A DNA stretch of 64,000 nucleotides from Microbacterium mitrae (GTDB lineage: Bacteria; Actinomycetota; Actinomycetes; Actinomycetales; Microbacteriaceae). The stretch is taken from NCBI RefSeq assembly GCF_008017445.1, contig NZ_VRSW01000001.1:620001-684000 (forward strand), written 5' to 3'. A program made the translations under genes and the position numbers. The first letter of the stretch is position 1, and each line of letters begins with the position of its first letter. Under the pieces are notes generated by a model. The model saw only the letters and a program-made list of their open reading frames with translations, had not been told where the DNA came from and did not search any database. Positions 19,157-35,808 of the stretch are shown here, piece after piece.

Positions 19157-19276
19157 ACCGCCACACTAGCGGGCGGTCATCGTTGCTCGCCACCCGCCGC
19201 AGTGGGTGCCGATCGTGCTGAGACGAACGCGCGGCCGGCTACGGCGCTGTCGGCTTCCGCGCAACCGTTTACCGGC

Positions 19277-19711: not shown

Positions 19712-19845
19712 GCAACAACGGTACGCTGTGGGCGCCACGCGCACGCCGCGCGGCGCCCACAGAACGGCAACACGGTTCCGCTACTCCCCCGCTTCGCGCG
19801 CTCACGTGCCAGACTTGGCGCGACGTTTCGCTTTTGGAGGTCTTT

Positions 19846-20292: not shown

Positions 20293-20333
20293 GCGCGGCG
20301 ATGCGGCTCACGCAGGCGAAGCGATGCTCGCCG

Positions 20334-20867: not shown

Positions 20868-20876
20868 CCCGCCAGA

Positions 20877-21428: not shown

Positions 21429-21464
21429 GTGTCTCTTCGCATCGCGTTCGAGGCATCAGTGAGC

Positions 21465-22007: not shown

Positions 22008-22097
22008 CACCAACGACGGTAGCACCACGCTCAGCCCCGGGGCGACCCTCGCATCAGCGGTGCGCCGCCACCAGCGGCGACGCCAGCACCCATGCTG

Positions 22098-22508
22098 CTA
22101 ACGGGAGGCTGCGGCGCCCCAAAATGCGTCCTCCGCGGGAGGATCCTCGGAATACAGGTGCACCTCGGCGATCTTTCCGTCGCGAATGGTCAACAGATCG
22201 ACGCCCGCCATGTCCATGACAGCGCCGTCACGCTCGCCCGTGAAGCGCACCGGCACGGCGACAGACTCGCCGTTCGTCATCATCGCTCCCGACACCGTCA
22301 AGGCAAACGTGCCGCGGCTGACCTGCATCATGCCTCCGATAACGGCGCCAACAGCCTCGATGCCAGTGTGGACACCCGAGAACTGGTTGTCTCCGGGCTG
22401 ATGCCACGCGACGCTCGGGCTGAGAAGGCCCATCGCAGTGGCGACATCACCCGCGCCCAGGGCATCGAAGTACGCGGTTGCGACGGTCTTAGGGTTTTGA
22501 TTGGTCAT
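22098..22508 (-). CDS. SnoaL/NTF2-like cyclase-fold protein
   Basis: The 136-residue protein matches the SnoaL-like NTF2 fold: KTVATAYFDALGAGDVATAM helix, SPSVAWHQPGDNQFSGVHTG, and the strands VDLLTIRDGKIAEVHLYSED. Such proteins are polyketide cyclases, isomerases or ligand-binding proteins. Start ATG 22508 has GAGGAGCG upstream. It is divergent from the HxlR-type regulator, and the inverted repeat between them suggests that the regulator controls both genes. Confidence 0.8.
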   Translation of the reverse strand: MTNQNPKTVATAYFDALGAGDVATAMGLLSPSVAWHQPGDNQFSGVHTGIEAVGAVIGGMMQVSRGTFALTVSGAMMTNGESVAVPVRFTGERDGAVMDMAGVDLLTIRDGKIAEVHLYSEDPPAEDAFWGAAASR

Positions 22509-22572
22509 GTTCTCGCTCCTCGGTGAATGCGTTGCGACGGATGGTGCCGCGTTGCATTTCCATAGTGACAAA

Positions 22573-22588
22573 AGGTAACCTGTTACCT
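22573..22588. promoter_or_regulatory. operator candidate between the SnoaL-like and HxlR genes
   Basis: AGGTAAC and GTTACCT are perfect 7-bp inverted arms separated by CT; a further GTAAC follows at about 22593. The site lies in the divergent promoter region 22509-22609. HxlR-type regulators bind such palindromes near their own start. Confidence 0.7.
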
Positions 22589-22609
22589 CAACGTAACTGG
22601 GGTAGACAC

Positions 22610-22990
22610 ATGACTCGTCCGGAGTGGAACGTGATGCTGGCGTCGTGCCCGTCGCGCACGTCGCTTGCTCGCATCGCCAACAAATGGACGGCGATGATCG
22701 TGATCGCGCTCGAAGGCAAGCGCTTGCGTTTCGGTGAGATCCGCGTGGCGGTCGACGGCATTAGCGGCAAGGTACTGTCGGAGACGCTGCGACAGTTAGA
22801 ACGCGACGGAATCGTCGCGCGCACCGCCTACGATGAGATGCCACCGCGCGTTGAGTACGAACTCACGCCGCTCGGAACCACGCTGTACGAGCCGCTGTCA
22901 GCGCTCGGTCGATGGGCCGAGCAACACATAGAGGCGGTCGAAGACGCGCGATTCGCCTACGACGTCCGCGAGCACTCGGCCGTCCTTTAG
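22610..22990 (+). CDS. HxlR-type winged-helix transcription regulator
   Basis: The 126-residue protein is of the MarR/HxlR superfamily: CPSRTSLARIANKWTAMIVI places the conserved Cys and the first helix, GKRLRFGEIRVAVDGISGKVLSETLRQLERDGIVAR is the winged helix-turn-helix, and PRVEYELTPLGTTL the wing. The N-terminal cysteine fits redox or electrophile sensing known for several HxlR proteins. Start ATG 22610 is preferred since the family begins there. It probably represses the divergent SnoaL-like gene and itself through the AGGTAAC palindrome. Confidence 0.88.
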   Translation: MTRPEWNVMLASCPSRTSLARIANKWTAMIVIALEGKRLRFGEIRVAVDGISGKVLSETLRQLERDGIVARTAYDEMPPRVEYELTPLGTTLYEPLSALGRWAEQHIEAVEDARFAYDVREHSAVL

Positions 22991-23012
22991 CTCCGTCGGG
23001 TGGCTGCCGCAC

Positions 23013-23594
23013 TCACCACGCCCGGCCCCGCAGGTGGATATCACCTTCGGGCCAGTCTTCGAGATTGCGGTCAATAGGCAGGATGAGCAGTGGTTGCCCG
23101 GGCGGGTCGGCAACCGGGTGTCCGGTGCGGTCAAGCGAACACTCAACGGCGGAGATTCGACTCCAGCCGCATGACACATAGAACGGAACCACGGACTCGC
23201 GGCACCCCAAGTAGCCAAAGTCGATGCCGCCAGCGGCGTTCATGCACTCCGCCGCGCGCGTCATCAGGCGCTCGCCCAAACCCGCGCCGTGTGCATCGTC
23301 GGAGATCAGCACGCCACCGACACCCGCAATGACGACGTCGTGCCCCGCGACGCTGATGGCGCGTCTCGCCCAGCCGACATGCCCCATGACCGCGCCCACT
23401 TGGTTCCGGGCAATGATGTGGTGGTCGTGTGGCGCGTACCCATACGGCTGATTCGGGTTCCACGCGCCGAAATCATCGAGGTACTCGGCGTCAAACAGGT
23501 CGCGGAGCGCAGTGAGCTGACCCGCGGTCAGCGCAGCGTGCGCGATCACGTCGATTTCGATCCCGAGCGTATTGTGCCGTGACCCTGCCCCCAT
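23013..23594 (-). CDS. GNAT acetyltransferase resembling aminoglycoside 2'-N-acetyltransferases
   Basis: The 193-residue protein has the AAC(2')-like layout: a leading ALTAGQLTALRDLFDAEY helix, HHIIARNQVGAVMGHVGWARR, VIAGVGGVLISDDAHGAGLG with the acetyl-CoA loop, YLGCRESVVPFYVSCGW, and a C-terminal LPIDRNLEDWPEGDIHLRGR resembling the ends of mycobacterial AAC(2') enzymes. This order is from memory and the similarity is structural rather than close. It may acetylate aminoglycosides or an unknown amine. The ribosome site is weak at ATG 23594. It converges on the HxlR gene. Confidence 0.7.
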   Translation of the reverse strand: MGAGSRHNTLGIEIDVIAHAALTAGQLTALRDLFDAEYLDDFGAWNPNQPYGYAPHDHHIIARNQVGAVMGHVGWARRAISVAGHDVVIAGVGGVLISDDAHGAGLGERLMTRAAECMNAAGGIDFGYLGCRESVVPFYVSCGWSRISAVECSLDRTGHPVADPPGQPLLILPIDRNLEDWPEGDIHLRGRAW

Positions 23595-23616
23595 GGTTCC
23601 ACGCTATCGAACGGCG

Positions 23617-23784
23617 TCAGGCGTCTCGTTGCGGGTCGATCGGAACGCTGGCGCGATCGATCGAGAAAAGGTCGGGTTGAGCGCGCTCAAAAGCACTTTC
23701 GAGAGCGTCGGCGCCGTGGGTCATAACCAGATCTGCTTGGAAGGCGTCGAGTACCCGATCGATTACGTCGTGAGGTTGGATCAT
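23617..23784 (-). CDS. possible 55-residue protein, unknown
   Basis: A clean frame from ATG 23784 to TGA 23617 begins MIQPHDVIDRVLDAFQADLV and ends DPQRDA. It is predicted helical, acidic and soluble and uses codons like its neighbours. It lies in a gap between two leftward genes with no other coding candidate. No clear ribosome site precedes it, so it is a candidate only. I recognise no family. Confidence 0.35.
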   Translation of the reverse strand: MIQPHDVIDRVLDAFQADLVMTHGADALESAFERAQPDLFSIDRASVPIDPQRDA

Positions 23785-23807
23785 ACGTGATCTGTAGCGG
23801 CCGGTCG

Positions 23808-24377
23808 CTATCGGACAGTGCCAAGGCTATCGCCGGCGGAATCCGCCGCGGCCTGTTCGATGAGACGAATGCCATGCGCTTTCGTCTTCGCCAACCATTC
23901 TTCGTTACGCGACGAGTCTGGGGCGTAGCGCAGCTCGAAATACGCCTTCCAGGCGGAGCGGATGCGAGCGACATTCCCGTCATTGCCCGCCGCGAGCCAG
24001 TCCAGCGCGGCCCATCCGTGCGCGCCGATATCGGGGCTGAAGTGGTCGGGGTCTTCCAGCGGAACCACGGCACCCGTCGAACGCGCCCATCCGAGCACCG
24101 CATAGGACAACGGATAGAAGTCGATGGATCGGTCACCATCGGACCCCACCAGCACGCCATCGACAAATCCCCTCTCGATGCCGAAGCGAAGTGCGCGCCC
24201 ATTGCTGTGGAGCCTCAGAGCCCAGACATCCATCTGCTCCGGGCCCCAAAAGTCACTGACTTCCCACCCGACCCCGAGTAACCCGCGAACGAATGTCGAC
24301 AAGCCCGCGTCTCGAGCGCGCAAATGATCGATGAACCGGGGAAGGTTCGTGAGATCGAGGGGCTCTTGAGCAACCAT
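23808..24377 (-). CDS. unknown soluble protein, 189 residues
   Basis: The protein has no signal peptide or membrane helix. It starts MVAQEPLDLTNLPRFIDHLR and continues with GWEVSDFWGPEQMDVWALRL and RSIDFYPLSYAVLGWARSTG, rich in Trp. I recognise no family. It lies upstream (in transcription order) of the 55-residue candidate and just downstream of the 301-residue helical protein, all leftward. Function is not inferable. Confidence 0.55.
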   Translation of the reverse strand: MVAQEPLDLTNLPRFIDHLRARDAGLSTFVRGLLGVGWEVSDFWGPEQMDVWALRLHSNGRALRFGIERGFVDGVLVGSDGDRSIDFYPLSYAVLGWARSTGAVVPLEDPDHFSPDIGAHGWAALDWLAAGNDGNVARIRSAWKAYFELRYAPDSSRNEEWLAKTKAHGIRLIEQAAADSAGDSLGTVR

Positions 24378-24438
24378 GGCTACAACTCTAAGGGCCGAGT
24401 GCTCGGCGGATTTGGGTCAGTGTCAGACGATACGCGCC

Positions 24439-25344
24439 TTAGCGCGTGGGTCTGGAACCAGCGGCGAGTGTGTCTACGGCCCACTTGCTCACGTTCTTCT
24501 GAGGCGATGTGCTCAAGCGCTCGACCACCTCACGGTGCGAGGCGAGAACTTCGGCTGGCGTCACCTGCAGTGCTTCGAGAAAAAGACGGTGGAGGCTCAC
24601 GCTCGCAGCGTTGGCCTGGTCGTCTTGCAGCCCCTTCATCACGGCAGCGACAACCTGGTCGCGTTGCACGAGTCCCTCCTCGACCAGAGTCTTGACGATC
24701 GCGGGGTACCCACGGGTTCGAGACTCCTCCTTGGTGTGCATCCAAAATTTGGTCACTCGCACCAGCCCTGTGCACTCCATGGCGATGAGCAACTGTTGAC
24801 GAAGCTCATCGTCGCCGCGGTACATCGCAAGCGTTGGTTCCATCCGCTCATGAAAGTCTGGGCCATCGCCAGACCGCCCTGTGGTCAGACGGAAGACCGT
24901 CGCGACGGCGTAACGATGCGTCGTGGGCCGCGGCATGCTGAGGCGAGCGCGCAGCGCTTCTCCCGAGGCATGGTTGCTGTCTTCGATCAGGTCGCTTGGC
25001 AGCTTGGTGGCGAGGAACTCCTCCACCATCCCGGCCAGCCATGAGGGGTTCCTATCCGCCAGCGCATCGGCGTAATCGTCAAACATCCAGGCCGCCGACT
25101 TGATGATTCTGCGAGTTGCACTGGTGTCGTCGTCAACGAGCGAAAGAGCCATGTCGGCTAGCGACAGTGCATTGCTGTACTTGGCGTAGCTCGGCAGCCC
25201 TCGATAGATGTCCGTGCGCAACCCTTTTAACGGACGAACCAGCCCTGCGCGTTCCGCTTCTGGTACCCCCTGGAGCAGCGCGAAGGTGTCCTCGAACGCG
25301 GCAGCGCGAATGGCAGATTCGAGTTTGCTGAAGTCGACGGGCAT
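24439..25344 (-). CDS. unknown all-helical protein, possibly HEAT-like (DUF6493-like N-terminus)
   Basis: The 301-residue protein is predicted almost entirely helical: MPVDFSKLESAIRAAAFEDT, LVRPLKGLRTDIYRGL, SATRRIIKSAAWMFDDYADAL, GYPAIVKTLVEEGLVQRDQVVAAVMKGLQ. The middle block PTTHRYAVATVFRLTTGRSG separates two helical halves. This looks like an alpha-solenoid. It recalls the N-terminal part of the much longer DUF6493 proteins, but the match is from memory and the rest of such a protein is missing. No partner is apparent. Confidence 0.5.
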   Translation of the reverse strand: MPVDFSKLESAIRAAAFEDTFALLQGVPEAERAGLVRPLKGLRTDIYRGLPSYAKYSNALSLADMALSLVDDDTSATRRIIKSAAWMFDDYADALADRNPSWLAGMVEEFLATKLPSDLIEDSNHASGEALRARLSMPRPTTHRYAVATVFRLTTGRSGDGPDFHERMEPTLAMYRGDDELRQQLLIAMECTGLVRVTKFWMHTKEESRTRGYPAIVKTLVEEGLVQRDQVVAAVMKGLQDDQANAASVSLHRLFLEALQVTPAEVLASHREVVERLSTSPQKNVSKWAVDTLAAGSRPTR

Positions 25345-25446
25345 GGTAGAAATCCAATCTCACAGAGCGCGAAACCCTGTCTAGGGCACCATGCTACGGG
25401 TGATCTGTGCGCTGGCACGACCGCGTGGAGCGGGCGTGGAGCCGCC

Positions 25447-26244
25447 TCACCGTGGAGTGGCAAGCCATCGGCGAAGAACGTCCACCCACTCATCGAAAGC
25501 GTCGAGGTGCGCATCGTGGCTGCCTGCGGCGAGATCTACCCGCTGGGTCTCGGGTCTCCGACGGATCAGTTCGTCCTTCGCCTCAGCGGTGAACATGCCG
25601 TGCTTTGCGAAGACGGCGAGTGTCGGAACCACGAGGCCTTCCCACTCGCCCCAACGCGGTTGATGCACCGCGGCGATGGTGCGTTCCATGACGTCCGCGT
25701 CGAAGCGAGCGACCAGCCCTTCCCCGGTGCGGCGGAGGTCCGCCACCCAGGCATCGACGATCGCGTCGTCGCCGAGAAACTGGCGCGCCGATGCTTCGTT
25801 TTCGAACTTCGTCGGCCACGATGCGAAGTACCGGCCAAGTCGCAGCGCCTCGTCTGGGTCGTCGCTCCCCGCAACGTGTCCTTCGAGCATCACCAGGCCA
25901 TCGACGAGGTCTGGACGCGCGGCGGCCACCAGGAACGCTGTGTGCGCTCCCATCGACTGACCCACAAGTGTGACGCGCCGGCCTGGAGCGCAGTCCTCGA
26001 TCACCGCGATGATGTCGCCCACGAAGGCGTTGCGCGACAGGTCCTGCGGGCGACGCGTACTGTCACCGTGTCCGCGCTGGTCGATGAGCAACACATGACA
26101 GCCCTCGAGCGCCTCGGCGGTAGCGCGCATCTCGCGCGAGCTTCCGGCGAGACCGTGGAGCAAGATCACGATCGGCCCGTCGCCACCCAAGTCGTGGACG
26201 GCGATCGACGCACCGTCACGGTGCACCGTCAGGCGTGCGGGCAC
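25447..26244 (-). CDS. alpha/beta hydrolase
   Basis: About 265 residues of alpha/beta-hydrolase fold: IVILLHGLAGSSREM supplies the oxyanion HG, LVGQSMGAHTAF is the nucleophile elbow with Ser in G-x-S-x-G, and GSHDAHLDAF near the C-terminus holds the catalytic His. It hydrolyses esters or similar bonds; the substrate is unknown. I start at GTG 26244, where homology to hydrolases should begin. Neither this GTG nor the one at 26310 has a ribosome site, and the ychF-like repeat A0 sits at 26252-26285, so the original upstream region may have been replaced when foreign DNA joined here. Confidence 0.75.
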   Translation of the reverse strand: MPARLTVHRDGASIAVHDLGGDGPIVILLHGLAGSSREMRATAEALEGCHVLLIDQRGHGDSTRRPQDLSRNAFVGDIIAVIEDCAPGRRVTLVGQSMGAHTAFLVAAARPDLVDGLVMLEGHVAGSDDPDEALRLGRYFASWPTKFENEASARQFLGDDAIVDAWVADLRRTGEGLVARFDADVMERTIAAVHQPRWGEWEGLVVPTLAVFAKHGMFTAEAKDELIRRRPETQRVDLAAGSHDAHLDAFDEWVDVLRRWLATPR

Positions 26245-26664
26245 GGCGCGGGGTGTTGAAGCGGACTCGACCGCGTTGCGGCACCGAAACACGCCGGCTC
26301 GGAAGAACACCGCACCAGCACACCCTCCCCACCGGTGAACTCGATCCCTGCCAACGTTGCAGCTCGCTCGACCTCCGCGAACCCGATCCCCTTATGTAGA
26401 TCGATCGATGCGAGATTCTGGGCGTTGATCACGCTGCAGATCGGCTCCCCCGGCGCTGCACGCCCGGTGAATCGAAGCACTTCGCTCAACAGCCTCACCG
26501 CGATTCCCTGCCGATGCGCCTCAGTGCTAGTCATGACTACTCCGGTAGGACTTTGCTGGCCACCGAACCAGGTCAGTCGCTTCGAGCTCCTCTGGCCCGC
26601 CGCCTTCGGTATGGTGCGCTTCGGTGACAGCTGTTTCTGCAGTGGCAATCCGGTCTTAGTGTGA
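26229..26664 (-). pseudogene. GNAT acetyltransferase fragment
   Basis: The frame contains the C-terminal two thirds of a GNAT protein: SPTGVVMTSTEAHRQGIAVR with the acetyl-CoA-binding Q/R-x-x-G-x-A segment, INAQNLASIDLHKGIGFAEV, which is the typical late helix and strand, and GIEFTGGEGVLVRC. The usual first strand and helices are absent; the 29 residues before it look unrelated, and site A lies directly upstream at 26674-26700. Downstream the frame runs through site A0 into the hydrolase start. It appears truncated at both ends by recombination at the flanking sites. It is not expected to be functional. Confidence 0.6.
26252..26285 (-). repeat. att-like site A0 (degenerate ychF 3'-end copy)
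   Basis: The plus strand reads GTTGAAGCGGACTCGACCGC here, which aligns with one missing base to the site-B sequence GTTGAAGCGGAACTCCACCA; the following GTTGCGGCA parallels GTCGCCGCA. It is the leftmost and most degenerate member of the series and marks the left boundary of the cassette array next to the hydrolase gene. Being degenerate, it could be chance. Confidence 0.5.
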
Positions 26665-26673
26665 AGGAAGATG

Positions 26674-26704
26674 CCAGACGTTGAAGCGGAATTTCACCAA
26701 CTGA
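26674..26704 (-). repeat. att-like site A
   Basis: The plus strand carries AGACGTTGAAGCGGAA followed by TTTCACC, 16 bases identical to sites B and C and matching the reverse complement of a YchF ending ...EFRFNV. Beyond that it diverges from B. It separates the acetyltransferase remnant from the NUDIX gene cassette. Confidence 0.8.
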
Positions 26705-26758
26705 CGTCAGGGATTGGCAATGCAACGGATGACCAAGATACCACTGCGAGCCCATGGG

Positions 26759-28021
26759 CTAAGCCTCAACGACGGACGACTCCCCCATCCTTCGCCGAAC
26801 CTCAGCTGCTAGTTCCGATGTTCCTAGACCCACCTCGCGCGCCAGCAGAGATAACGCCACCCCGAGTGGCAGTGAAACTCGCCCGCGCTCCCCATGAGGG
26901 AGGATGAGTTCGGCATTTGACGGATCCCAAAGGGCCGGCGACAGTGCCGGTCGAACGAACGAAACGCCGTCAACGTACACCCGCTCCTCGTTTCGACGCT
27001 TGCGTTGCCGAAGTTCGTGCGAATCCACGCTCAAGAAGGTCACGGCCAACACCTCGGGGTTCGCGGCTTTGTTCAGCCAGCGGCCGAAGCCGAGAAAGTA
27101 CGACGCCGCAATATCTGCAGGCTTGATCGAAGCTTCCTCCTGCAACTCGCGGTTCGCCCCGGCAATGGACACGGTCGCGACATCCACCGCCGTCGCGCCT
27201 CCCAAGTCCTTCGGTTCGAGGCTACCCGAGCCGCTCGGAGCGAGTAGGCCCTGCTCGCCGACGTTCCGGACGCTCTGCTCCGTGATGACGAACATCCCAT
27301 CGGAGGTGACGGCGATCGTGCTGACTCCAATGCCATTAAACAACCAACTAGCATCGAAATCGCGAAGCCGTGCCATCCGGTCGACAAACAGCCGCCGACC
27401 GGCGAGAACTGTCTCCGATCCATCACGTCGCGTGTCGACTGCGGCGAAGTAGTCCGAAGCGAGCCGGTCGAAGAAGGTGCCGCGGACCAGCATCACGGTC
27501 CCCGTCTCGTCCGGCACCTCCGCCAAGGCGCTCCGCCAACCGAGCCCGGGTCCGTTGAAGATCGAGCTGTCCTTGGCGATTCTCTCCCGACGGTAGCGAT
27601 GCCCGAGCACTCTCAGGTCGCTGGGAAGCGCGTACGGCTGCGGCCGCACCACCGCATTCAGGCGCCCCTCGGCGATCCGGAGGCTCATGTCGACGTCGTG
27701 CACGAAAGTCTCCGCGTGGACGCGGATAATATTCCACCGCTCGTCACCGGCAAGCTCCGCGGTAACGTCGGCGAAGTCGTCCAACGGCCGCCTGACGAAG
27801 GTGGTCCGTCGCCGCTCAAGCCAGTAGCGCCGGACATCGGCCCCAAGGAGGACCAGCGAGACAGTGGCGAGGAGCCAGTTGATCCACACGGGGATGGCGA
27901 CGAAAATCCCCAGGACGCCGACGGCCGCGAGAATGGTGCTCAACAGGATCCAGCGAGCGGACGCAATCGCCTCACCGAGGTGCACCGCCGAAGTCAGCAG
28001 GCGCCGCTTAAGAGAAATCAT
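26759..28021 (-). CDS. membrane-anchored NUDIX-domain protein
   Basis: The 420-residue protein begins with a basic 24-residue tail and two close membrane helices (about 24-45 and 46-63), so the rest is cytoplasmic. A soluble domain of about 180 residues follows, then a NUDIX-like domain (about 240-395) with the box GANRELQEEASI near 288-299, i.e. R-E-L-x-E-E, the metal-binding core; the glycine spacing before it is looser than in the consensus. NUDIX enzymes hydrolyse nucleoside diphosphates linked to another group. Two-helix anchors joined to nucleotide-processing domains are known from nucleotide-based conflict systems, so a defence or signalling role is possible but inferred. It is the sole gene between sites A and B. 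Confidence 0.6.
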   Translation of the reverse strand: MISLKRRLLTSAVHLGEAIASARWILLSTILAAVGVLGIFVAIPVWINWLLATVSLVLLGADVRRYWLERRRTTFVRRPLDDFADVTAELAGDERWNIIRVHAETFVHDVDMSLRIAEGRLNAVVRPQPYALPSDLRVLGHRYRRERIAKDSSIFNGPGLGWRSALAEVPDETGTVMLVRGTFFDRLASDYFAAVDTRRDGSETVLAGRRLFVDRMARLRDFDASWLFNGIGVSTIAVTSDGMFVITEQSVRNVGEQGLLAPSGSGSLEPKDLGGATAVDVATVSIAGANRELQEEASIKPADIAASYFLGFGRWLNKAANPEVLAVTFLSVDSHELRQRKRRNEERVYVDGVSFVRPALSPALWDPSNAELILPHGERGRVSLPLGVALSLLAREVGLGTSELAAEVRRRMGESSVVEA

Positions 28022-28053
28022 CGATGGACCTCCGTCCGGACAGTGCGATCATG

Positions 28054-28103
28054 GTAGACGTTGAAGCGGAACTCCACCACGTCGCCGCAGATACCAACCT
28101 CTG
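28054..28103 (-). repeat. att-like site B (best copy of a ychF 3' end)
   Basis: The plus strand reads GACGTTGAAGCGGAACTCCA then CCACGTCGCC. Its reverse complement encodes G-D-V-V-E-F-R-F-N-V, the end of a typical YchF, whereas the local YchF ends F-R-F-A-V with different codons. The site continues GCAGATACCAACCT, a tail shared with sites C' and D but not with ychF. Confidence 0.9.
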
Positions 28104-28222
28104 TGAACCCGGCGAATCCCCAAAAATGACGGCCCTCGACTGGCTCGGCAATTATCGAGCTCGCCGAGCGGGGGGCGCAACCCAGGTTGACAACCCGTCA
28201 CTTAGCAACGTAGGTTGACGGC

Positions 28223-28468
28223 ATGGAGTCTCCGCGGATCGCAGCAGTAGCAGCCGATACCAGCGACCCGAAAGCAGGATTGCGGGCCGTAGCGTCCTTG
28301 CGCGTACTCGCGGACACCTTGGAACTTCGACAGGTCGAGGCCGCGTTGCGCTCGGGCATGAGTTGGCAGGAGATCGCCGACGCGCTCGGAGTGACGCGAC
28401 AAGCCGCCCACAAGAAGCACTCCAAAAGAATTGACCCAGCGATCTCGACACCCAGGAGGAACAGATGA
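28223..28468 (+). CDS. small helix-turn-helix protein
   Basis: The 81-residue protein has a C-terminal helix-turn-helix: VEAALRSGMSWQEIADALGVTRQAAHKKHSKR, resembling the sigma-70 region 4 / AsnC-type recognition helix, preceded by a helical N-terminus. It lacks a sensor domain. Its stop overlaps the next ATG as ATGA, so it is translationally coupled to the Clp-N/SRPBCC gene and probably regulates the pair. It lies just right of site B and is oriented rightward. Confidence 0.8.
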   Translation: MESPRIAAVAADTSDPKAGLRAVASLRVLADTLELRQVEAALRSGMSWQEIADALGVTRQAAHKKHSKRIDPAISTPRRNR

Positions 28469-29454
28469 ACAAACTCGTCCGCGCCGCTCAAACCAGCCAA
28501 TCGCTGTCCCTGGCCGCCATGGAGGAAGCATCCCGGCTCGGGCTCCGCGAAGCCGACATCGACCACCTGTTCCTCGCATTGGTCATCAACGACCAGTCCG
28601 CCGGCCGCGCACTGCGCGAGCTCGGTATCGACATTGATAGCGCCCGTCTCGCCGTCGAGGAACAACGTGATGCACAGCTGACCTCGCTCGGCATCGAGGC
28701 GACGTTCCCCGAGGCCGGGCGCATCGTGTTCCACGAGACGGATGGGTACGAGTGGACTCGTCGCGCTCGGGACCTCATCGCGAAGTCCAGCGGCAAAGGC
28801 AAGCCAGGCGACGCTGCCGCCGTTCTCCGGGAACTCGTCGCAGAACCCAGCGGTCTGATCACGGGTATCCTCCGCCGCCTAGGCACGACACCCGATGTGC
28901 TCATCGAACGCCTCGATCGGGCCGACTCGCTCTCGACGAAGTCCATGCCCGCCGCAACGAAAGTGAAGGGGCGGACCACGGGAACGACTGAGACGTTCGT
29001 ATCTGCACCACTGGACGAAGTGTGGGCGTTCCTCACAGATCCCGCACGTATCCCCGAGTGGGAACCGAGCATCGGCATCCTCGATCAGACCAGTCAAGAA
29101 GCGACGCCAGGTACGGTCTGGGAGGGCGTTGCACCCGTAACCTATCCAGACGGCAAGCCTGCGAAGATCAAGCCTCAGTTTCGTCGACGCAGTGTTGAAC
29201 TCATCGCAATTCACCAACCGGACAGGATCGCATGGAGCTTCGGATATCCCGACGTCGCGCAAGGCAATTCGGTTCTGACTGAATTCGCCTTGGTGAACGC
29301 GCCCGGTGGCACACAGGTACGGATTAGTAGGTCCTGGTCGCGACGCCGAGGGTGGCGAGGACTTGTCGCATGGCCGCTGCGTCCAATCCAAAAGTTCCTG
29401 GTGTGGATCACCCTGTTTCAGACTGGCAGCGCGATCAGCCGAGCATTTCGCTAG
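28465..29454 (+). CDS. Clp N-terminal repeat domain fused to an SRPBCC domain
   Basis: The 329-residue protein starts with a Clp-N-like double repeat (about 1-155: HLFLALVINDQSAGRALREL and AVLRELVAEPSGLITGILRR are the two repeat cores), but there is no AAA+ ATPase or protease domain. From about 172 an SRPBCC (START-like) domain follows, beginning TTETFVSAPLDEVWAFLTDP and ending RISRSWSRRRGWRGLVAWPL. Clp-N domains bind adaptor or substrate proteins and SRPBCC domains bind hydrophobic ligands, so this may be a ligand-dependent adaptor; that is inference. Coupled to the HTH gene, it forms a two-gene cassette between sites B and C. Confidence 0.75.
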   Translation: MNKLVRAAQTSQSLSLAAMEEASRLGLREADIDHLFLALVINDQSAGRALRELGIDIDSARLAVEEQRDAQLTSLGIEATFPEAGRIVFHETDGYEWTRRARDLIAKSSGKGKPGDAAAVLRELVAEPSGLITGILRRLGTTPDVLIERLDRADSLSTKSMPAATKVKGRTTGTTETFVSAPLDEVWAFLTDPARIPEWEPSIGILDQTSQEATPGTVWEGVAPVTYPDGKPAKIKPQFRRRSVELIAIHQPDRIAWSFGYPDVAQGNSVLTEFALVNAPGGTQVRISRSWSRRRGWRGLVAWPLRPIQKFLVWITLFQTGSAISRAFR

Positions 29455-29492
29455 CCCAACCCGCGGCGACTTGCCTGGTGGTCGAGCATAAT

Positions 29493-29531
29493 CGAGTGCC
29501 CGGATCTCCCACAGGAAGATCCGGGCACTCG
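29493..29531. terminator. 15-bp perfect hairpin at the end of the Clp-N/SRPBCC cassette
   Basis: CGAGTGCCCGGATCT pairs perfectly with AGATCCGGGCACTCG around a nine-base loop. It lies 38 bases after the SRPBCC gene and three bases before site C. No T-run follows, so it may act as a terminator or as part of the recombination site. Confidence 0.75.
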
Positions 29532-29534
29532 AAC

Positions 29535-29558
29535 CAGACGTTGAAGCGGAACGCGACT
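29535..29558 (-). repeat. att-like site C
   Basis: AGACGTTGAAGCGGAA is identical over 16 bases to sites A and B, then diverges (CGCGACTAC). It stands immediately left of site C', so two sites are placed back to back. Confidence 0.8.
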
Positions 29559-29608
29559 ACACGTTAAACCTGAACTCCACCGCATTCCGGCACATACCAA
29601 CCTGTGGT
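29559..29608 (-). repeat. att-like site C'
   Basis: ACACGTTAAACCTGAACTCC then ACCGCATTCCGGCACATACC aligns without gaps to site B, about three quarters of positions matching, including the GAACTCCACC core and the ATACCAACCT tail. It is the left end of the nucleotidyltransferase-like cassette. Confidence 0.8.
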
Positions 29609-29769
29609 TGCGTGTCTGGCTGGCATCGCCTCGGCCCCCACCTCGCCCCTTCCGGAGACGCAGAAGGTGGGGCAGCGGGGGCACGCGACCCGATCTCGCG
29701 TCCGCCTCTGTCGGCAGCCCCTGATAGGACATAATGACAGGTGACTGCGACCCACAGGGAGGTGACTTG

Positions 29770-30332
29770 GTGCTGCCTGCACTTGACGAGCAGACGGGCC
29801 TGCTTCCGCTGGGCCGATTCGGCGCGTCGTTGGAAGAGATCAAATCCCACTACGTTGACGATCCCCGGTTCGCGAAGTCGGCGACCCGCGCCGAGATCTG
29901 GCAGCACTTCGAGTCCGCTACCGACGGCATCCGCTCTGTCGTCCCCGTGGTGTGCGTATGGGTGGGTGGCAGCTTCCTTACCGACAAGATCGATCCTGAC
30001 GACATCGACCTCGTCTACTGGGCGCAGACGTGCTCGTTGACCAGGTGACCGACCCCAAGGATCGGTACATCCTGCAGATGTTCGGGATGAACCAGGTCCG
30101 ACCAGCGACGGGCCTGCGCGTTGATACTCGATACTGCCTATGGCACGTGTTCCCCGAGGCGGACCGCGCCCACTCAGTCGAGCACCAGTCATATGCGTTG
30201 AATCGTGGCTACTGGGATGACTTCTGGATGCGCAAGCGCAACGGCGCGAAGGAAGATCCTCCGCAACGGCCGGATGCCCTACCGCAGCGCGGCTACTTCG
30301 AAGTGACTCTGGACGGTTTCCATGGCGTTTGA
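29770..30332 (+). pseudogene. DUF6932-like nucleotidyltransferase-fold gene broken by a frameshift
   Basis: Starting at GTG 29770 behind GGAGG, the product reads MLPALDEQTGLLPLGRF and reaches GGSFLTDKIDPDDIDLVYW, a nucleotidyltransferase-type G-S-x(n)-D-x-D motif, then stops at 30046-30048. Moving to the preceding frame just after TACTGGGCG gives the natural continuation A-D-V-L-V-D-Q-V-T-D-P-K-D and a further 95 residues to 30332. A single-base deletion near 30022 explains this. Restored length would be about 187 residues, fitting small DUF6932-like proteins as I remember them. Either it is inactive, or frame shifting or a sequencing error is involved. It overlaps the next gene by 11 bases. 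Confidence 0.65.
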
Positions 30333-31275
30333 CTGGGAGCAGTTCAAGGCCAACGTCCAAGGCGAAGCTGAGTGGCAGGACGCAGATGATCTTGCGCGCA
30401 TGAGCATCGAGACTCTGCGCGCTGAGCACGGCTTGCTGCGGCGCGACGCTTCTTCAGGGTCTCTGCGCCTGACTGGGCCAGGAATCACGATCCACTCGGG
30501 AGCGATCGACGGGATTGCTGACACGCTTCGCAATTTTCAGCGCCTGGTGCTTGCGACAGGCCTCGCGGTGAAGGGGCACAAGTCGTTGCGTGGGCAACCG
30601 CCCGCCGACGTCGTCTCGAAGACCCGACTGAACCTCAATGGTTCACCACTGCCGGGAAGCCTCATCCTGCAGATCGTGCCGACGACTTCGCCAGCGGACG
30701 AGATCTCACCCGATGGCCAAGTGGGGCTGTTCGGAGACGACAATGCAGAGCCCCAGTTGATCGACACCGCCATGAAGCGAGCACTGGGACTGCTCGAGGA
30801 CGGACGTCGTCTCGGCCCAGATGCCGACACCAGTGACTTCTTGGCGCGCATCCGCGAGTACGGACCGCGCGTCGCCACGACGTTGCGCGACTTCTCGACA
30901 GGTCTGGTGAAATCAGGGTTCGAGCCTGATCTCACTTGGTCCCAGCCTCGCCAGGCGCGCCTGCGCACGCGCCTCTCCACGGCTGAACTCGCTCACATTG
31001 GAGAGCTCATCGCTTCTCGGGAACTCGAGCTCGAGCCGACCACCATCCGCGGCATCTTGCGGACTGTCAGCGAGATCAGCGCTTGGCAGCTGGAGATCGA
31101 GGACGGCGAGATCGTCAAGATCGACGCGAAGAAGATCCCTGCGGCGAACACTGCAACGCTGCGCACCGGCATGTCAGTTTCAGTCGATGTGTCAGTCACG
31201 GAAGAAACCGGCCCTGCCGGCGAAGTTAAGCCCAAGTACACGGCGACGTCGTTCACAGTGCTGAGCAACCCGTAA
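30322..31275 (+). CDS. unknown partner of the nucleotidyltransferase-like gene
   Basis: The 317-residue soluble protein begins MAFDWEQFKANVQGEAEWQD. A middle block (LRNFQRLVLATGLAVKGHKSL, about 74-94) and a helical second half (DFLARIREYGPRVATTLRDF; AHIGELIASRELELEPTTI) are followed by a beta-rich end with TATLRTGMSVSVDVSVTEET. I recognise no family. The 11-base overlap with the preceding gene indicates co-translation, so the two products probably act together, as in toxin-antitoxin or defence pairs, although nothing in sequence proves that. Confidence 0.6.
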   Translation: MAFDWEQFKANVQGEAEWQDADDLARMSIETLRAEHGLLRRDASSGSLRLTGPGITIHSGAIDGIADTLRNFQRLVLATGLAVKGHKSLRGQPPADVVSKTRLNLNGSPLPGSLILQIVPTTSPADEISPDGQVGLFGDDNAEPQLIDTAMKRALGLLEDGRRLGPDADTSDFLARIREYGPRVATTLRDFSTGLVKSGFEPDLTWSQPRQARLRTRLSTAELAHIGELIASRELELEPTTIRGILRTVSEISAWQLEIEDGEIVKIDAKKIPAANTATLRTGMSVSVDVSVTEETGPAGEVKPKYTATSFTVLSNP

Positions 31276-31296
31276 GGCCGAGTCGTTACACCACAT

Positions 31297-31848
31297 CTAG
31301 TCCAACGGCTGGATCCGGAGGTTGGTCCGCGGCGGCAAATCCCAGCCGTGACGCGCATGAATTTCCCTAACCAACTCTTCCGCGTTGACCTGGAGCTTGG
31401 CAAGTGCAGCCGCGTCGTGGCCGACTGATCGTAAATGGCGCAGGTTGCTGCTCAGCGCGTGCGCCCAACTCATCAGCGGGTCGAGGTTCGCCACCCGCCG
31501 CTCAACGGTGTCGCCGGGCTTGGCGGCCTCAATCACCTGGCGGCCGATGGTCGCGCCCAGCGTGCGCTCGGCCTCCAGCCACGAGTCGATACCATCCCAG
31601 CCGTCGAGCTGGTCGACGAGCGCGATCGACGTGATGCGCAGGTTGGCGAGCCGCTCCCCCACCGGCTCGGCCGTCGGATCGAACCCGATTAGGCGCTGCA
31701 CGGCTTCCTGCACCGCGAACCAGCGTGCGTCCTCGGCCGCCTTGCGCGACTCGGCGAGTGCCTCGTTCGCGCGCTTGTTCGCTTGGTAAGTGCCGACGCC
31801 GGCGATCAGCAGCGACAGGGCCGAGATCACCAGCGCGAGGACATCCAT
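31297..31848 (-). CDS. single-helix membrane protein with coiled-coil, unknown
   Basis: The 183-residue protein starts with one membrane helix (MDVLALVISALSLLIAGVGT) and then a charged helix QANKRANEALAESRKAAEDA likely to form a coiled coil, followed by a helical cytoplasmic domain ending DLPPRTNLRIQPL. It is oriented against the preceding pair and ends 22 bases from it. Small one-helix proteins of this shape are frequent in defence islands, but I recognise no family. It closes the cassette between C' and D. Confidence 0.55.
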   Translation of the reverse strand: MDVLALVISALSLLIAGVGTYQANKRANEALAESRKAAEDARWFAVQEAVQRLIGFDPTAEPVGERLANLRITSIALVDQLDGWDGIDSWLEAERTLGATIGRQVIEAAKPGDTVERRVANLDPLMSWAHALSSNLRHLRSVGHDAAALAKLQVNAEELVREIHARHGWDLPPRTNLRIQPLD

Positions 31849-31966
31849 GGCTCGATCCTGCCACTACAAGAAGCAGTTCCTGAAGCACTTCCGGCTATTG
31901 CTTGCCCGAGGCGCGTCAGCCGACTAACCCGCGCTCACTACGACGCTCCGCGCGGCGACCAATCCC

Positions 31967-32022
31967 TACAGCGCGAATCTCCACTCCACCGATTTCCGGT
32001 ACATACCACCCTCTTGAGGTGT
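31967..32022 (-). repeat. att-like site D
   Basis: ACAGCGCGAATCTCCACTCC then ACCGATTTCCGGTACATACC aligns without gaps to site C' over 40 bases, sharing ACTCCACCG, TTCCGG and ACATACC, and continues CACCCTCTTGAGG. It separates the membrane-protein cassette from the metal-transport operon. Confidence 0.8.
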
Positions 32023-32072
32023 GCAGTGAAGCGCTCGGCCCCGCGTCCGGGACCGACAGCTTGCGTTCGACG

Positions 32073-32381
32073 TCAACGATACGTCTCGTGCAACCCCTCC
32101 TCGATCTGAGACGGAGTCGGTGCACCGGCGTACCCGCGCTCAGTCGCGTAGACCCGGCACGCGAGCGAGCGAACCGGTTGCGTCGGAAAAAGGTCGACGC
32201 CGTCGACGAGGATCGTGGGCGAGCCTCCGAATCGGGTGTTCGCCGCTTCGGTCTCGGTGTGGATCGTTACCAGCTCGATGGGCACTTCCGCGAGCTCGGC
32301 GGCATCCAGCGCGGCGCGCGCGTTTGCTTCGGCGATGGCCGTGTTCGGGCAGTCGACGATGTGCAGCAGTTCGACCTTCAT
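32073..32381 (-). CDS. thioredoxin-fold protein of the metal operon
   Basis: The 102-residue protein has a thioredoxin-like pattern: MKVELLHIVDCPNTAIAEAN (strand, single Cys-Pro, helix) and GGSPTILVDGVDLFPTQPV with the cis-Pro SPT. Only one of the usual two cysteines is present in the motif, so it may bind metal or form mixed disulphides rather than catalyse exchange. Similar proteins are often annotated near mercury or heavy-metal genes in Actinobacteria. Its start overlaps the ATPase stop by four bases, so it is the third gene of the arsR-ATPase operon. Confidence 0.7.
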   Translation of the reverse strand: MKVELLHIVDCPNTAIAEANARAALDAAELAEVPIELVTIHTETEAANTRFGGSPTILVDGVDLFPTQPVRSLACRVYATERGYAGAPTPSQIEEGLHETYR

Positions 32382-34291
32382 ACGATCTGCTCCATCCGGG
32401 TCCGGGCCGCGCGCAAGCCATTGAGGATCACGATGACCTCCGCGATCTCGTGCACGAGCACCACGGCAGCGAGTCCCAGGACGCCGAAGAGGGCGAGCGG
32501 GAGCAGGGCGATGATGATCAGCAGCGACAGGATGATGTTCTGGTTGATGATGTGCCGTCCGCGCCGGGCATGGTCGAACGCGCGCGGCAGCAGCCGCAGG
32601 TCGTGCCCGGTGAACGCGACATCGGCCGACTCGATCGCGGCATCCGACCCGGTCGCGCCCATCGCGATCCCGATGTCCGCGGCGGCGAGGGCGGGGGCGT
32701 CGTTGATGCCGTCGCCGATCATCGCCACCGAACCATGCTGGCCGAGCTCAGCGATCGCAGCGGCCTTGTCCTCGGGGCGCAGCTCGGCGCGCACGTCCTC
32801 GATCCCGGCCTGCGCCGCGAGAGCGCGGGCGGTGCGGGCGTTGTCGCCGGTGAGCATCGTGACCCCGATGCACTGCGCGGCGAGCGTGCGGACGACCTCC
32901 GGGACCTCCAGGCGCAACTCGTCGCGGACGCCGATCGCAGCGACCGGCTCGCCGTCGCGGTGCACGATGACGACCGTCATGCCCTGCTCCTCCAGCCCTG
33001 CGACCCGGTCGCCGAGCGTCCCGGCGTCCAGCCAGCGGGGGCTGCCGACCGTGATCCGCGCGCCGTCGAGCTTGCCCTCGATGCCGTGCCCGGCCTGCTC
33101 GGTCACGTCCTCGGCTACTGAGGCCCCCGGCGCGGCGGCGGTGATCGCGGCCGCGAGCGGGTGGGTGCTGTGTTGCTCCAGCGCGGCCGCCCACGCCAGC
33201 GCCTGCGCCTCGGTGGTCCCGTCGGCGGTGAGAACGGCGTTGACGACGGGCTCGTTTCGGGTGAGGGTGCCGGTCTTGTCGACGGCGACGTGGCGGATCA
33301 CGCCGAAGCGCTCGAACGCGGCACCGGACTTGATGATCACGCCGAACTTGCTCGCCGAGCCGATCGCGGCGACCACGGTCAGCGGCACGGAGATCGCCAG
33401 CGCGCACGGCGACGCCGCCACGAGGACGACCAGGGCGCGAGTGACCCACAGCTCGGGGTCGCCGAACAGCGAACCGATCAGCGCCACCAGGACGGCGAGG
33501 ACGAGCACACCAGGGACGAGGGGTCGGGCGATGCGGTCGGCGAGGCGGGCGCGGTCTCCCTTCTCGGCCTGCGCCTGCTCAACGAGGTCCACGATCGTGG
33601 TCAGCGAGTTGTCGGTGCCCGCCGCGGTCGTCTCGACTTCCAGCGCGCCGGCGGAGTTGATTGCACCGGCCGAGACTGCATCTCCCAGCTCGACCTCGAC
33701 CGGGATCGACTCTCCAGTGATCGCAGACGTATCCAAACTCGAACGACCCGTGACCACGACGCCGTCGGTCGCGATCCGTTCGCCCGGCCGCACCAGCATC
33801 AGCTGGCCCACCTGGAGGTCTTTCGCGGCGACCTCGACCGACGCGCCGTCGCGGCGGATGGTCGCTGTCTCAGGGACGAGCTTGAGCAGCGCCCGGAGCC
33901 CGCCGCGGGCGCGGTCCATCGCCTTGTCCTCCAGCGCCTCAGCGATCGAGTACAGGAACGCCAGGGCCGCGGCCTCCTCGACGTAGCCGAGGATCACCGC
34001 GCCAATGGCGCTGATCGTCATCAGCAGGCTGATGCCGAGCTTGCGCTTGAACAGTTTGCGGATCGCGCCCGGGGTGAACGTCGACGCTCCCAGCAGCAGA
34101 CCGAGCCAGAACAGCACCAGCGCCAGGATCTCGAGCCCGGACCACTCCAGGACGAGACCGGTCAGGAAAGCGACGCCGGAGAGGACCGGGACCATGATCC
34201 CGCGGTCCCGCCACCAGGGTCGCTCCTGCACCTCCTCAACTGCTTCGCCGACCGTGGTCTCGGGCTCGTCGCAGCCGCACGCCGCGCTCAT
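32378..34291 (-). CDS. P1B-type heavy-metal transporting ATPase (P1B-4-like)
   Basis: The 637-residue protein has the P-type ATPase series: TGES (actuator), SPCAL in the sixth-helix position, DKTGT with the phosphorylated Asp, and GDGINDAP. The SPC metal motif instead of CPC, together with VHEIAEVIVILNG in the last helix, points to the P1B-4 group that exports Co, Zn or Cd. It has no N-terminal HMA domain but carries a Cys-rich head CGCDEPE after the start. I start at ATG 34291, which overlaps the arsR stop as ATGA; the frame continues upstream into arsR. It pumps metal out of the cytoplasm, with expression controlled by the linked ArsR protein. Confidence 0.88.
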   Translation of the reverse strand: MSAACGCDEPETTVGEAVEEVQERPWWRDRGIMVPVLSGVAFLTGLVLEWSGLEILALVLFWLGLLLGASTFTPGAIRKLFKRKLGISLLMTISAIGAVILGYVEEAAALAFLYSIAEALEDKAMDRARGGLRALLKLVPETATIRRDGASVEVAAKDLQVGQLMLVRPGERIATDGVVVTGRSSLDTSAITGESIPVEVELGDAVSAGAINSAGALEVETTAAGTDNSLTTIVDLVEQAQAEKGDRARLADRIARPLVPGVLVLAVLVALIGSLFGDPELWVTRALVVLVAASPCALAISVPLTVVAAIGSASKFGVIIKSGAAFERFGVIRHVAVDKTGTLTRNEPVVNAVLTADGTTEAQALAWAAALEQHSTHPLAAAITAAAPGASVAEDVTEQAGHGIEGKLDGARITVGSPRWLDAGTLGDRVAGLEEQGMTVVIVHRDGEPVAAIGVRDELRLEVPEVVRTLAAQCIGVTMLTGDNARTARALAAQAGIEDVRAELRPEDKAAAIAELGQHGSVAMIGDGINDAPALAAADIGIAMGATGSDAAIESADVAFTGHDLRLLPRAFDHARRGRHIINQNIILSLLIIIALLPLALFGVLGLAAVVLVHEIAEVIVILNGLRAARTRMEQIV

Positions 34292-34647
34292 GCGCCTGCC
34301 CCCGTCCCGCAGCAGCCCGGCACCGGGCACTGGTCATCAACGCATGGCGCGTGCTCGTCGACGGCCAGCGTCACATCCACGAGCGCCGTGAGCGCCGCAG
34401 CAAGGTGCGGGTCGGCGATCTCGTAGCGCGTCTGCCGTCCCTCGGGCTCGGCGGCCACGATGCCACAGTCGCGCAGACAGGTCAGGTGGTTCGACACGTT
34501 CGACCGGGTCAGCTCCAGCTCGCGCGACAGCACCGCCGGATAGCTCGGGCCGTCGAGCAGGGCCATCAGGATCCGGGATCGCGTCGGGTCCGCCATGGCT
34601 CGGCCGAGCCGGTGCATGACGTCGAGGCGTGAAGCAATGGTCAGCAT
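34288..34647 (-). CDS. ArsR/SmtB-type metal-sensing repressor
   Basis: The 119-residue winged-helix protein has the ArsR core AMADPTRSRILMALLDGPSY, recognition helix SRELELTRSNVSNHLTCLRD and wing EPEGRQTRYEIADPHL. Cysteines in LTCLRDCG and in the C-terminal CVDDQCPVPGCC provide metal ligands, resembling CadC/CmtR-type sensors (Cd/Pb). It is first in the operon and should repress it when metal-free. Its ATG lies directly downstream of a -10 element, so the message is probably leaderless. Confidence 0.88.
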   Translation of the reverse strand: MLTIASRLDVMHRLGRAMADPTRSRILMALLDGPSYPAVLSRELELTRSNVSNHLTCLRDCGIVAAEPEGRQTRYEIADPHLAAALTALVDVTLAVDEHAPCVDDQCPVPGCCGTGAGA

Positions 34648-34648
34648 G

Positions 34649-34665
34649 CACTGAACTATACAGTG
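34649..34665 (-). promoter_or_regulatory. operator and -10 region of the metal operon
   Basis: CACTG (34649-34653) and CAGTG (34661-34665) are perfect inverted arms over seven bases. On the minus strand the spacer gives TATAGT, a good -10 box, seven bases before the arsR ATG at 34647. Transcription would start at or next to the ATG, i.e. a leaderless message, and repressor bound to the palindrome would block RNA polymerase. A clear -35 box is not visible. Confidence 0.65.
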
Positions 34666-34725
34666 ACTGCTGACCTATTTTGGTCATCGCATCGGCAGGT
34701 CAGACCACTCAATCGACGCCAGAGG

Positions 34726-34760
34726 TTATACGGCGAAACGAAATTCCACCACGTCGCCGT
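34726..34760 (-). repeat. site E: native ychF 3' end, right boundary of the array
   Basis: TTATACGGCGAAACGAAATT then CCACCACGTCGCC holds the stop codon and last codons of ychF (…G-D-V-V-E-F-R-F-A-V). TCCACCACGTCGCCG is identical to site B. All repeats to the left keep this orientation, as expected if elements insert at the ychF end. Confidence 0.85.
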
Positions 34761-35808
34761 CGCGCATGATGTAGTCCTTGCCCTCGAGGCGGGCCTTGCC
34801 CTTCGCGCGCGCCTCGGCGACCGAGCCGGTCGCGATGAGGTCTTCGAACGAGATGACCTCAGCCTTGATGAAGCCCTTCTCGAAGTCAGTGTGAATGACA
34901 CCGGCAGCCTGCGGAGCCCTCGCGCCCTGCGGAATCGTCCACGCGCGGGCTTCTTTCGGCCCCGCCGTGAGGTAGGTCTGCAGGCCGAGCGTCGCGAATC
35001 CGATGCGCGCGAGCTGGTCAAGGCCCGACTCGGTCTGGCCGGTCGCTTCGAGCAACTCCTGTGCGTCTTCGGGGTCGAGGTCGATCAACTCAGACTCAAT
35101 CTTCGCGTCGAGGAAGACAGCCTGGGCGGGAGCCACGAGCTCCGCAAGCTCGGCCTTTTTCGAATCATCGGTGAGAATCGCCTCGTCGACGTTGAAAACG
35201 TAAATGTAGGGCTTGGCGGTCAGTAGGCCCAGCTCTCGAATCGGCGTGACGTCGATGTTGCTGCCCGACAGCAAGATGCCGCGCTCCAGCGCGTCTTTCG
35301 CCGCGTTCGCGGCCTCAAGAACCGAGGGGTCAGCCTTCTTCTGCTTGACCTCTTTTTCGTAGCGAACGATCGCCTTTTCGAGGGTCTGCAGGTCTGCGAG
35401 CATCAGCTCGGCGTTGATGGTCTCCATGTCATTGCGCGGGTTGACCTCGCCGTCAACGTGCACGACATCGCCATCGGTAAAGCCACGCACCACCTGCGCG
35501 ATCGCGTCAGCCTCACGAATGTTCGCCAGAAACTGGTTACCCAGCCCTTCGCCCTCGCTCGCGCCGCGAACGATGCCTGCGATATCGACGAACGACACGC
35601 TCGCCGGAAGAATGCGCTCGGAATGGAACACATCGGCAAGCTGCTGCAGACGCGGGTCAGGCAGGTTCACCACGCCAACGTTCGGCTCAATCGTCGCGAA
35701 CGGGTAGTTCGCCGCGAGCACGTTGTTGCGCGTCAGCGCGTTGAACAGGGTTGACTTGCCGACGTTGGGCAGGCCGACGATTCCGATAGTAAGAGCCACG
35801 GGTGACAA
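34726..35808 (-). CDS. ychF: redox-regulated ATPase YchF (Obg-related)
   Basis: The 360-residue universal P-loop protein has GIVGLPNVGKSTLFNALT near 10-27 and FVDIAGIVRGASEGEGLGN (switch region), and in place of the GTP-specific N-K-x-D reads N-V-D-E, which explains ATP preference in this family. A coiled-coil insertion (about 130-170) and a C-terminal TGS domain (LEGKDYIMRDGDVVEFRFAV) are complete. YchF binds ribosomes and modulates translation under stress. The C-terminal codons double as the target site of the cassette array: its 3' end is repeated five or six times to the left. Confidence 0.96.
   Translation of the reverse strand: MSPVALTIGIVGLPNVGKSTLFNALTRNNVLAANYPFATIEPNVGVVNLPDPRLQQLADVFHSERILPASVSFVDIAGIVRGASEGEGLGNQFLANIREADAIAQVVRGFTDGDVVHVDGEVNPRNDMETINAELMLADLQTLEKAIVRYEKEVKQKKADPSVLEAANAAKDALERGILLSGSNIDVTPIRELGLLTAKPYIYVFNVDEAILTDDSKKAELAELVAPAQAVFLDAKIESELIDLDPEDAQELLEATGQTESGLDQLARIGFATLGLQTYLTAGPKEARAWTIPQGARAPQAAGVIHTDFEKGFIKAEVISFEDLIATGSVAEARAKGKARLEGKDYIMRDGDVVEFRFAV

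Follow-up and report, generated by a model that had tools for sequence, protein, structure and literature searches.

Prophages and genomic islands of the Bxb1, A118 and phiC31 type are moved by serine integrases. In the accessible part of one account of these enzymes (PMC3783163), attP is a dyad about a central dinucleotide, and the zinc-domain motif is shifted by 5 bp between attP and attB. Large serine recombinases (LSRs) also serve the staphylococcal cassette chromosome (SCC), pseudo-SCC and composite islands at rlmH (orfX) of staphylococci and the enterococcal cassette chromosome (ECC); in the accessible text of two reports (PMC6243372; PMC6222049), the target lies within the 3' end of a conserved gene, which remains intact; SCC elements stand in tandem, and elements without a recombinase and cargo for metal resistance occur. 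A pneumococcal prophage integrates next to ychF, but the accessible part of its description (PMC6375853) places the 14-bp attB upstream of the gene, where the promoter is altered, and not at the 3' end. Our literature search found no description of arrays or serine integrases at the 3' end of ychF, preprints and most subscription papers lying outside its reach. In this study, we analyzed a window of 64,000 nucleotides from Microbacterium mitrae (assembly GCF_008017445.1, contig NZ_VRSW01000001.1, positions 620,001 to 684,000; coordinates below count from the first letter of the window), in which a row of gene cassettes lies behind ychF. The SCC features named above, including an LSR enzyme in related elements and a target that is restored, recur at ychF, and comparison with relatives suggested that the array likely consists of mobile cassettes inserted successively by an LSR at one GT in the seventh-last codon of this gene.

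Results

Six sites with a ychF tail, all on one strand, split 26.27-34.75 kb of the window into five cassettes. The sites were scored with a matrix comprising the left half-site, the GT and 6 further bases, which was trained on 73 sites partly including those of the window, so that the scores below are in-sample.

34726-35808, minus strand: ychF; from position 34748-9 (GT) onward, its last seven codons with the stop are those of the newest cassette and encode VEFRFAV-stop
34726-34775, minus strand: site E; ychF left half (B-type), GT at 34748-9, right half of cassette 1; score 14.8
31989-34748, minus strand: cassette 1, 2760 bp; cmtR-type regulator, cadmium-type P-type ATPase and 102-aa DF-family-like protein
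31966-32015, minus strand: site D; GT at 31988-9; score 32.5; right half changed, reading VEWRFAL-stop
29580-31988, minus strand: cassette 2, 2409 bp; DUF6932 protein followed by a 100-aa open reading frame, and proteins of 317 aa and 183 aa
29557-29606, minus strand: site C'; GT at 29579-80; score 43.3; encodes VEFRFNV-stop
29534-29556, minus strand: C, another copy of the ychF tail, lying 23 bp to the right of C' (double tail)
28077-29579, minus strand: cassette 3, 1503 bp; HTH-like protein and Clp_N/SRPBCC protein
28054-28103, minus strand: site B; GT at 28076-7; score 39.2; encodes VEFRFNV without a stop
26697-28076, minus strand: cassette 4, 1380 bp; a single 420-aa protein
26674-26723, minus strand: site A; GT at 26696-7; score 12.8; left half weak, right half good
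26271-26696, minus strand: cassette 5, 426 bp; GNAT remnant, weak match
26248-26297, minus strand: site A0; GT at 26270-1; score 22.0; outermost site recognised

Beyond these six sites, the matrix reached at most 8.4 on the same strand and 7.5 on the opposite strand of the 64-kb window. An earlier note, made from the letters of the window alone, had listed seven repeat stretches reading in one direction as boundaries; all seven are present, and six of them delimit cassettes, the seventh (C) being the second tail copy and no separate boundary. Such double tails occur as well in loci L027, L049, L060 and L130; an attC-like hairpin reading of them was dropped, since the dyad has the GT at its centre and the left half is conserved by itself (no attC search was made). 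The sequence which that note had seen in common at A, B and C, TTCCGCTTCAACGTC, is found without mismatch only at these three places in the 2.82-Mb genome. The left part shared by B, C' and D, ending ATACCA(A/C)CCT, is indeed absent from ychF, and was identified as a P-type left half-site. Gene orientation within the cassettes is mixed.

The cassettes were then compared between genomes. In L134, which belongs to another family of the same order, ychF is about 74% identical to that of the window over the 380 bp before the GT; from the GT onward, the VEFRFAV-stop tail and cassette 1, which stands whole directly behind ychF in L134, are 91.2% identical up to the GT of site D. Cassette 3 stands directly behind ychF in L130, with 91.8% identity and a match that ends 9 bp short. 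Altogether, five cassette pairs between genera or families showed 90.3-99.6% identity inside the cassette and 46-52% outside it, random pairs giving 48.9% (standard deviation 2.9); the one outside exception was the ychF side of the window/L134 pair (73%), where both sequences are ychF. The highest value, 99.6%, joined L141 and L179 across families. The match ran from GT to GT in three of the five pairs, and that between L076 and L182 began 48 bp in. Furthermore, the DNA to the right of 13 displaced sites corresponds, starting with the first GT base, to the right side of another genome's ychF in 28 of 32 listed rows, a list that holds only matches starting within 60 bases and in which L020 and L180 are one record. 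Judged from these alignments, the cassette ends fall at or near the GT in the seventh-last codon of ychF, and the cassettes are mobile, recurring in distant genera in other contexts and carrying the ychF tail along.

The boundaries in relatives, the cassette pairs and the displaced tails back the proposal of the earlier note that site-specific integration occurred repeatedly at the 3' end of a protein gene and apparently restored the gene, giving a row of cassettes that lacks an enzyme of its own. None of the relatives examined carries the same genes in the same order, and the site matches far exceed chance. The direction assumed in that note has to be reversed, however: it had derived the cassette tails from a foreign ychF, whereas EFRFNV is the ordinary end of ychF and the local EFRFAV arrived with the newest cassette, L134 having the same tail and cassette.

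The distribution of sites was surveyed in 117 loci, comprising ychF from 80 genomes (the best 80 hits), 14 class genomes with pattern matches, 20 same-genus genomes picked by hand (L185 being chosen as a known site carrier), the window and two other records; ychF was found in 115 of them. Two loci were omitted from counts, L180 for being the same record as L020 and L133 for overlapping L185. All sites with at most three mismatches to the coding tail lie in or downstream of ychF, on its strand. In a leave-one-locus-out scan of 114 loci, the 26-bp left half-site scored at least 15 at 83 places downstream on the ychF strand and at 2 on the opposite strand, as compared with 1 and 0 in 0.77 Mb upstream of ychF; the match list counts 84 in 40 loci owing to rounding. 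A stricter pattern run over 394 class genomes hit 21 places in 19 genomes (reversed control 0), four of which are ychF itself, and the remaining 17 all lie behind ychF. Among loci with 5 kb downstream, 19/68 and 7/19 have sites, in a sample that is not random.

Right halves of displaced sites (n = 84) comprised 46 of FRFNV type with a stop, 21 other in-frame variants and 17 that are not ychF-like. The in-frame tails vary mostly at third codon positions (0.328, versus 0.098 and 0.053), in a set preselected for V-(E/D/A/G)-(F/L)-(R/K) or FRFNV-type halves, which conditions codons 1-4; codons 5-7 alone gave about 0.10, 0.10 and 0.38 by codon position. Because the displaced halves are still in frame and vary at third positions, each ychF-like displaced site was probably once the working end of ychF. 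Where sites follow ychF, the tail of the gene is of native type in 27 of 38 loci and altered in 11. The 62 loci without sites had 57 native tails, 1 altered tail (1/58 callable) and 4 uncallable ones. Several Microbacterium ychF genes (L021, L022, L025, L026, L028 and others) end in FRFNN rather than FRFNV, an ending also seen in displaced sites of L137, L179 and L181.

Relatives also hold six complete elements of 9.5-15.6 kb at the same GT of ychF, each with an LSR gene; Resolvase and Recombinase domains were identified in the LSR. The LSR gene starts directly behind the ychF stop in L138 and L055, the latter having one in-frame stop. The viral record G467 begins in ychF and ends in a displaced VEFRFNV-stop site, about 35 bp from which its LSR starts. 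When this LSR was used as query, seven relatives at E <= 1e-70 were found in the 394 class genomes; the LSR starts no more than about 60 bp from a VEFRFNV-stop site in four of the seven, and in viral contig L228, and ychF stands at the other end of the element in three of those four genomes, where contigs are long enough. Faecal "phage" contigs H2-H4 were rejected, as they carry plain ychF ends. In all six complete elements the ychF tail is altered (e.g., VEFRTGLTSKK, VEFRFSPTSK) and the far site is VEFRFNV-stop.

The half-sites of these elements were examined outward from the GT, the set being restricted to the six whose two ends are unambiguous. The dyad covers 11-15 of 25 positions, compared with 6.56 (standard deviation 2.14) in random DNA and 7.85 in native ychF halves. 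The motif AC(G/C)T(C/G) is found at +20 in three of the six right halves, the other three having variant motifs, and at +15 in 59 of 102 ychF ends; in L237 the offset is due to a simple insertion of 5 bp that separates VEFRF from the motif. The 5-bp outward shift follows the published attP/attB rule (PMC3783163), and with their GT-centred dyad the LSR elements at the ychF GT are built, in their half-sites, like the att sites of serine integrases.

Tyrosine integrases were also seen next to ychF or kilobases behind it, at 11121-12401 in L072, in L073, at 15289-16470 in L082 and at 18970-20688 in L079 (hosts Amycolatopsis, Blastococcus, Nocardioides and Gordonia), so that a second class of enzyme apparently also targets ychF. 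Two near-identical tyrosine recombinases of 376-377 aa occur in the window genome (C5:106879-107391 and C1:1480349-1480861; L006, L007), one of them lying 2-3 kb from the end of a contig. L054 (6340) and L037 (13571) have, behind ychF, longer partial ychF copies that differ from the cassette sites.

The following genes were assigned in cassette 1.

34288-34647, minus strand: cmtR-like Cd(II)/Pb(II) sensor; NF047906, 179.7 bits (cut-off 150)
32378-34330, minus strand: cadmium-family heavy-metal P-type ATPase; TIGR01512, 486.9 bits (cut-off 313.5)
32073-32381, minus strand: small DF-family-like protein; NF049942, 61.1 bits, under the curated cut-off of 70

Of the cargo, the cmtR regulator, the cadmium-type ATPase, the DUF6932 and Clp_N/SRPBCC proteins and a weak GNAT match were confirmed, whereas the NUDIX membrane protein of the earlier note had no Pfam hit at E 0.01. 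The 420-aa protein of cassette 4 had no match in Pfam (E 0.01) or NCBIfam, nor did the 317-aa and 183-aa proteins of cassette 2 in either library. The start of the cmtR-type gene (34601-34679) matches other places in many same-genus genomes, and the cmtR operon may occur away from ychF as well. From ychF to the homologue of the gene at 16336-16941 the distance is about 5-12.5 kb in the six relatives listed and 18 kb in the window; given this longer stretch, 17-26 kb of the window may hold older cassettes with decayed sites, although the matrix recognised no site there. The stretch 17300-26200 contains accessory genes (GNATs, an HxlR regulator, a hydrolase) and differs among relatives.

The cargo survey covered 122 of 194 gene calls made with a simple GC-frame script. 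Among the top 25 families per library, HTH, PIN, GNAT, RibD and glyoxalase recurred in small numbers, and GajA/OLD-like defence models were matched by at least two of the 122 proteins. A HigBA-type cassette family starting approximately TAGCGTTATTGACG stands behind ychF in many genera (L135 1637-2689, L020, L062, L067, L096, L125, L186). In the L135 copy, a gene for a HigB-like toxin accompanies an HTH antitoxin-like gene; the HigB domain was checked in L135 only, and the HTH protein was confirmed in the L062 and L096 copies as well. "R-class" sequences after the stop (CGTTATTGACG...) had been considered as arm sites and were rejected, being the start of this family. In addition, a cassette gene of L077 (11892-14441) combines TIR, NB-ARC-like and TPR domains, and its product is predicted to act in defence or signalling.

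Discussion

In the mechanism that we propose, an LSR would insert a cassette at the GT, the cassette would supply the new end of ychF, and the old end would be pushed outward. The array of the window would have been made by the LSR family seen in relatives or by a sister branch. As the window genome has no LSR, its cassettes were presumably moved in trans by the LSR of an incoming element, or are stranded as LSR-less remnants of elements. Displaced sites combine a P-type left half with a B-type right half, as expected for attR. After insertion of a normal serine-integrase element, the ychF tail should be of P type, yet most tails are native; the 27 native tails out of 38 suggest that the site on most LSR-less cassettes is a hybrid, which re-establishes the native target when it inserts. 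The native-type right half of most cassettes would thereby renew the target each time and enable stacking.

Several observations weigh against this mechanism. No LSR (PF07508) was found in the window genome, nor was any recombinase found in the array, in line with the earlier note; the genome has four short resolvase-type serine matches outside the array and six tyrosine recombinases, none of them inside the window. Of 33 array or LSR records, only 4 yielded an LSR relative above 200 bits; the remaining 29 reached 135.8 bits at most, and 12 of the 33 have none at E <= 0.001. Three of eight LSR relatives show no ychF-type site in the flanks seen and no ychF in the 20 kb fetched. Cassette 1, read from its L134 copy, has a dyad of only 11 of 25 positions, with AACCTC at +21 instead of +19. 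On a matrix built from 66 LSR-less sites, the left halves of seven LSR-bearing elements scored only 11.0-17.8, lower than many cassettes, among which values above 25 occur. These low scores, together with the few LSRs of the ychF branch, suggest that the window's cassettes may have been moved by a branch outside the LSRs seen. LSR-less cassettes mostly join a P-type left half to a B-type right half; according to the accessible part of PMC3783163, serine integrases do not recombine pairings other than attP/attB without a recombination directionality factor. Two of the five cassette pairs miss the GT by the 9 and 48 bp given above, three of ten cassette ends compare poorly (40, 50 and 75% over the last 60 bases, ungapped), and the left half of site A is poor. 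A tyrosine integrase reading frame lies about 100 bp from such a site in L079, and others adjoin ychF in L072 and L073.

The last point bears on a rival mover, a tyrosine recombinase of the phage-integrase or integron-like type that is encoded elsewhere; the earlier note had pointed to an enzyme encoded elsewhere and to tyrosine recombinases next to such sites. Besides these three loci, L082 has a tyrosine integrase about 4 kb downstream of ychF, and two of the six tyrosine recombinases of the window genome are near-identical; a search of the loci with eight seed proteins found none outside these four, the ychF repeat of L072 and L073 (approximately GTTCCG(C/T)TTCAACGTCTGA) lies to the right of the GT with a left half unlike that of the array, and sites of the array type are symmetric about the GT in elements that bear an LSR. 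We consider such a mover improbable, and LSR elements at the same GT in relatives indicate that the enzyme was probably an LSR. Homologous recombination or tandem duplication at ychF, to which the partial ychF copies in L054 and L037 could be attributed, is hardly credible as the source of the repeats, since the array sites resemble ychF mainly to the right of the GT and carry, in their left halves, a distinct conserved sequence of 26 bp, and since the cargo differs from genome to genome.

It is also conceivable that complete LSR islands inserted in turn and eroded in place, no cassette ever moving without its own LSR. The LSR remnants inside the arrays of L096 and L085, the several decayed right halves and sites, and the two shared cassettes that miss the GT at one end would agree with such erosion, and the chief alternative to hybrid sites is that the LSR and the P-type ends were lost once the element had inserted. 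However, LSR-less cassettes of 0.5-2.8 kb are common to several genera, which requires either movement at this small size or retention of one and the same deletion in both lineages, and the copies in L141 and L179 are nearly identical across families; we therefore regard erosion in place as unlikely, though less so than the two explanations above. Successive insertion of small mobile cassettes by an LSR remains the reading that we prefer.

If so, a single housekeeping gene would serve as a shared docking port for traded genes. The end of ychF appears to be one port through which metal resistance, a HigBA-type toxin-antitoxin pair, TIR-type and GajA/OLD-like predicted defence and many unknown genes are traded in Actinomycetota. 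Integrons are not known to be the usual vehicle in this phylum. The analysis yields a simple sequence rule by which such cassettes can be found, as well as serine recombinases whose attP/attB pairs are predicted, and it indicates that mobile elements rewrite the last residues of the conserved ATPase YchF.

Compared with known systems, the array resembles an integron, as the earlier note had it, in being a row of small cassettes with the newest beside a fixed port. Unlike in integrons, the port is a housekeeping gene, genes lie in both orientations and the half-sites are of LSR type (attC was not searched for); neither an integron integrase near the array nor any tyrosine recombinase in the window was found. 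As a tentative idea, somewhat less likely than its converse, the system could be a serine-recombinase counterpart of the integron with the coding end of a universal housekeeping gene as port, whose hybrid-site cassettes re-create the target, stack without limit, are traded singly across the phylum and may rely on one enzyme, with no directionality factor, for both insertion and excision, some of them rewriting the YchF C-terminus. The GT-centred dyad and shifted motif are shared with serine-integrase prophages and islands, from which the ychF elements differ in accumulating at one site, in being mostly seen without an integrase and in having an att half that doubles as the coding end of ychF. 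The nearest analogue appears to be the SCC and pseudo-SCC arrays at rlmH. Unlike SCC, the elements target ychF in Actinomycetota, show one LSR per element instead of a Ccr set, and are often cassettes of 0.5-3 kb with one gene or operon; the LSR of L138 scored far under the cut-offs of the Ccr models (CcrB 76.4/900, CcrA 34.5/700 and CcrC 29.5/900 bits). The locus can thus be described as an SCC-like architecture with a different gene target, LSR branch and phylum and with units that are often much smaller.

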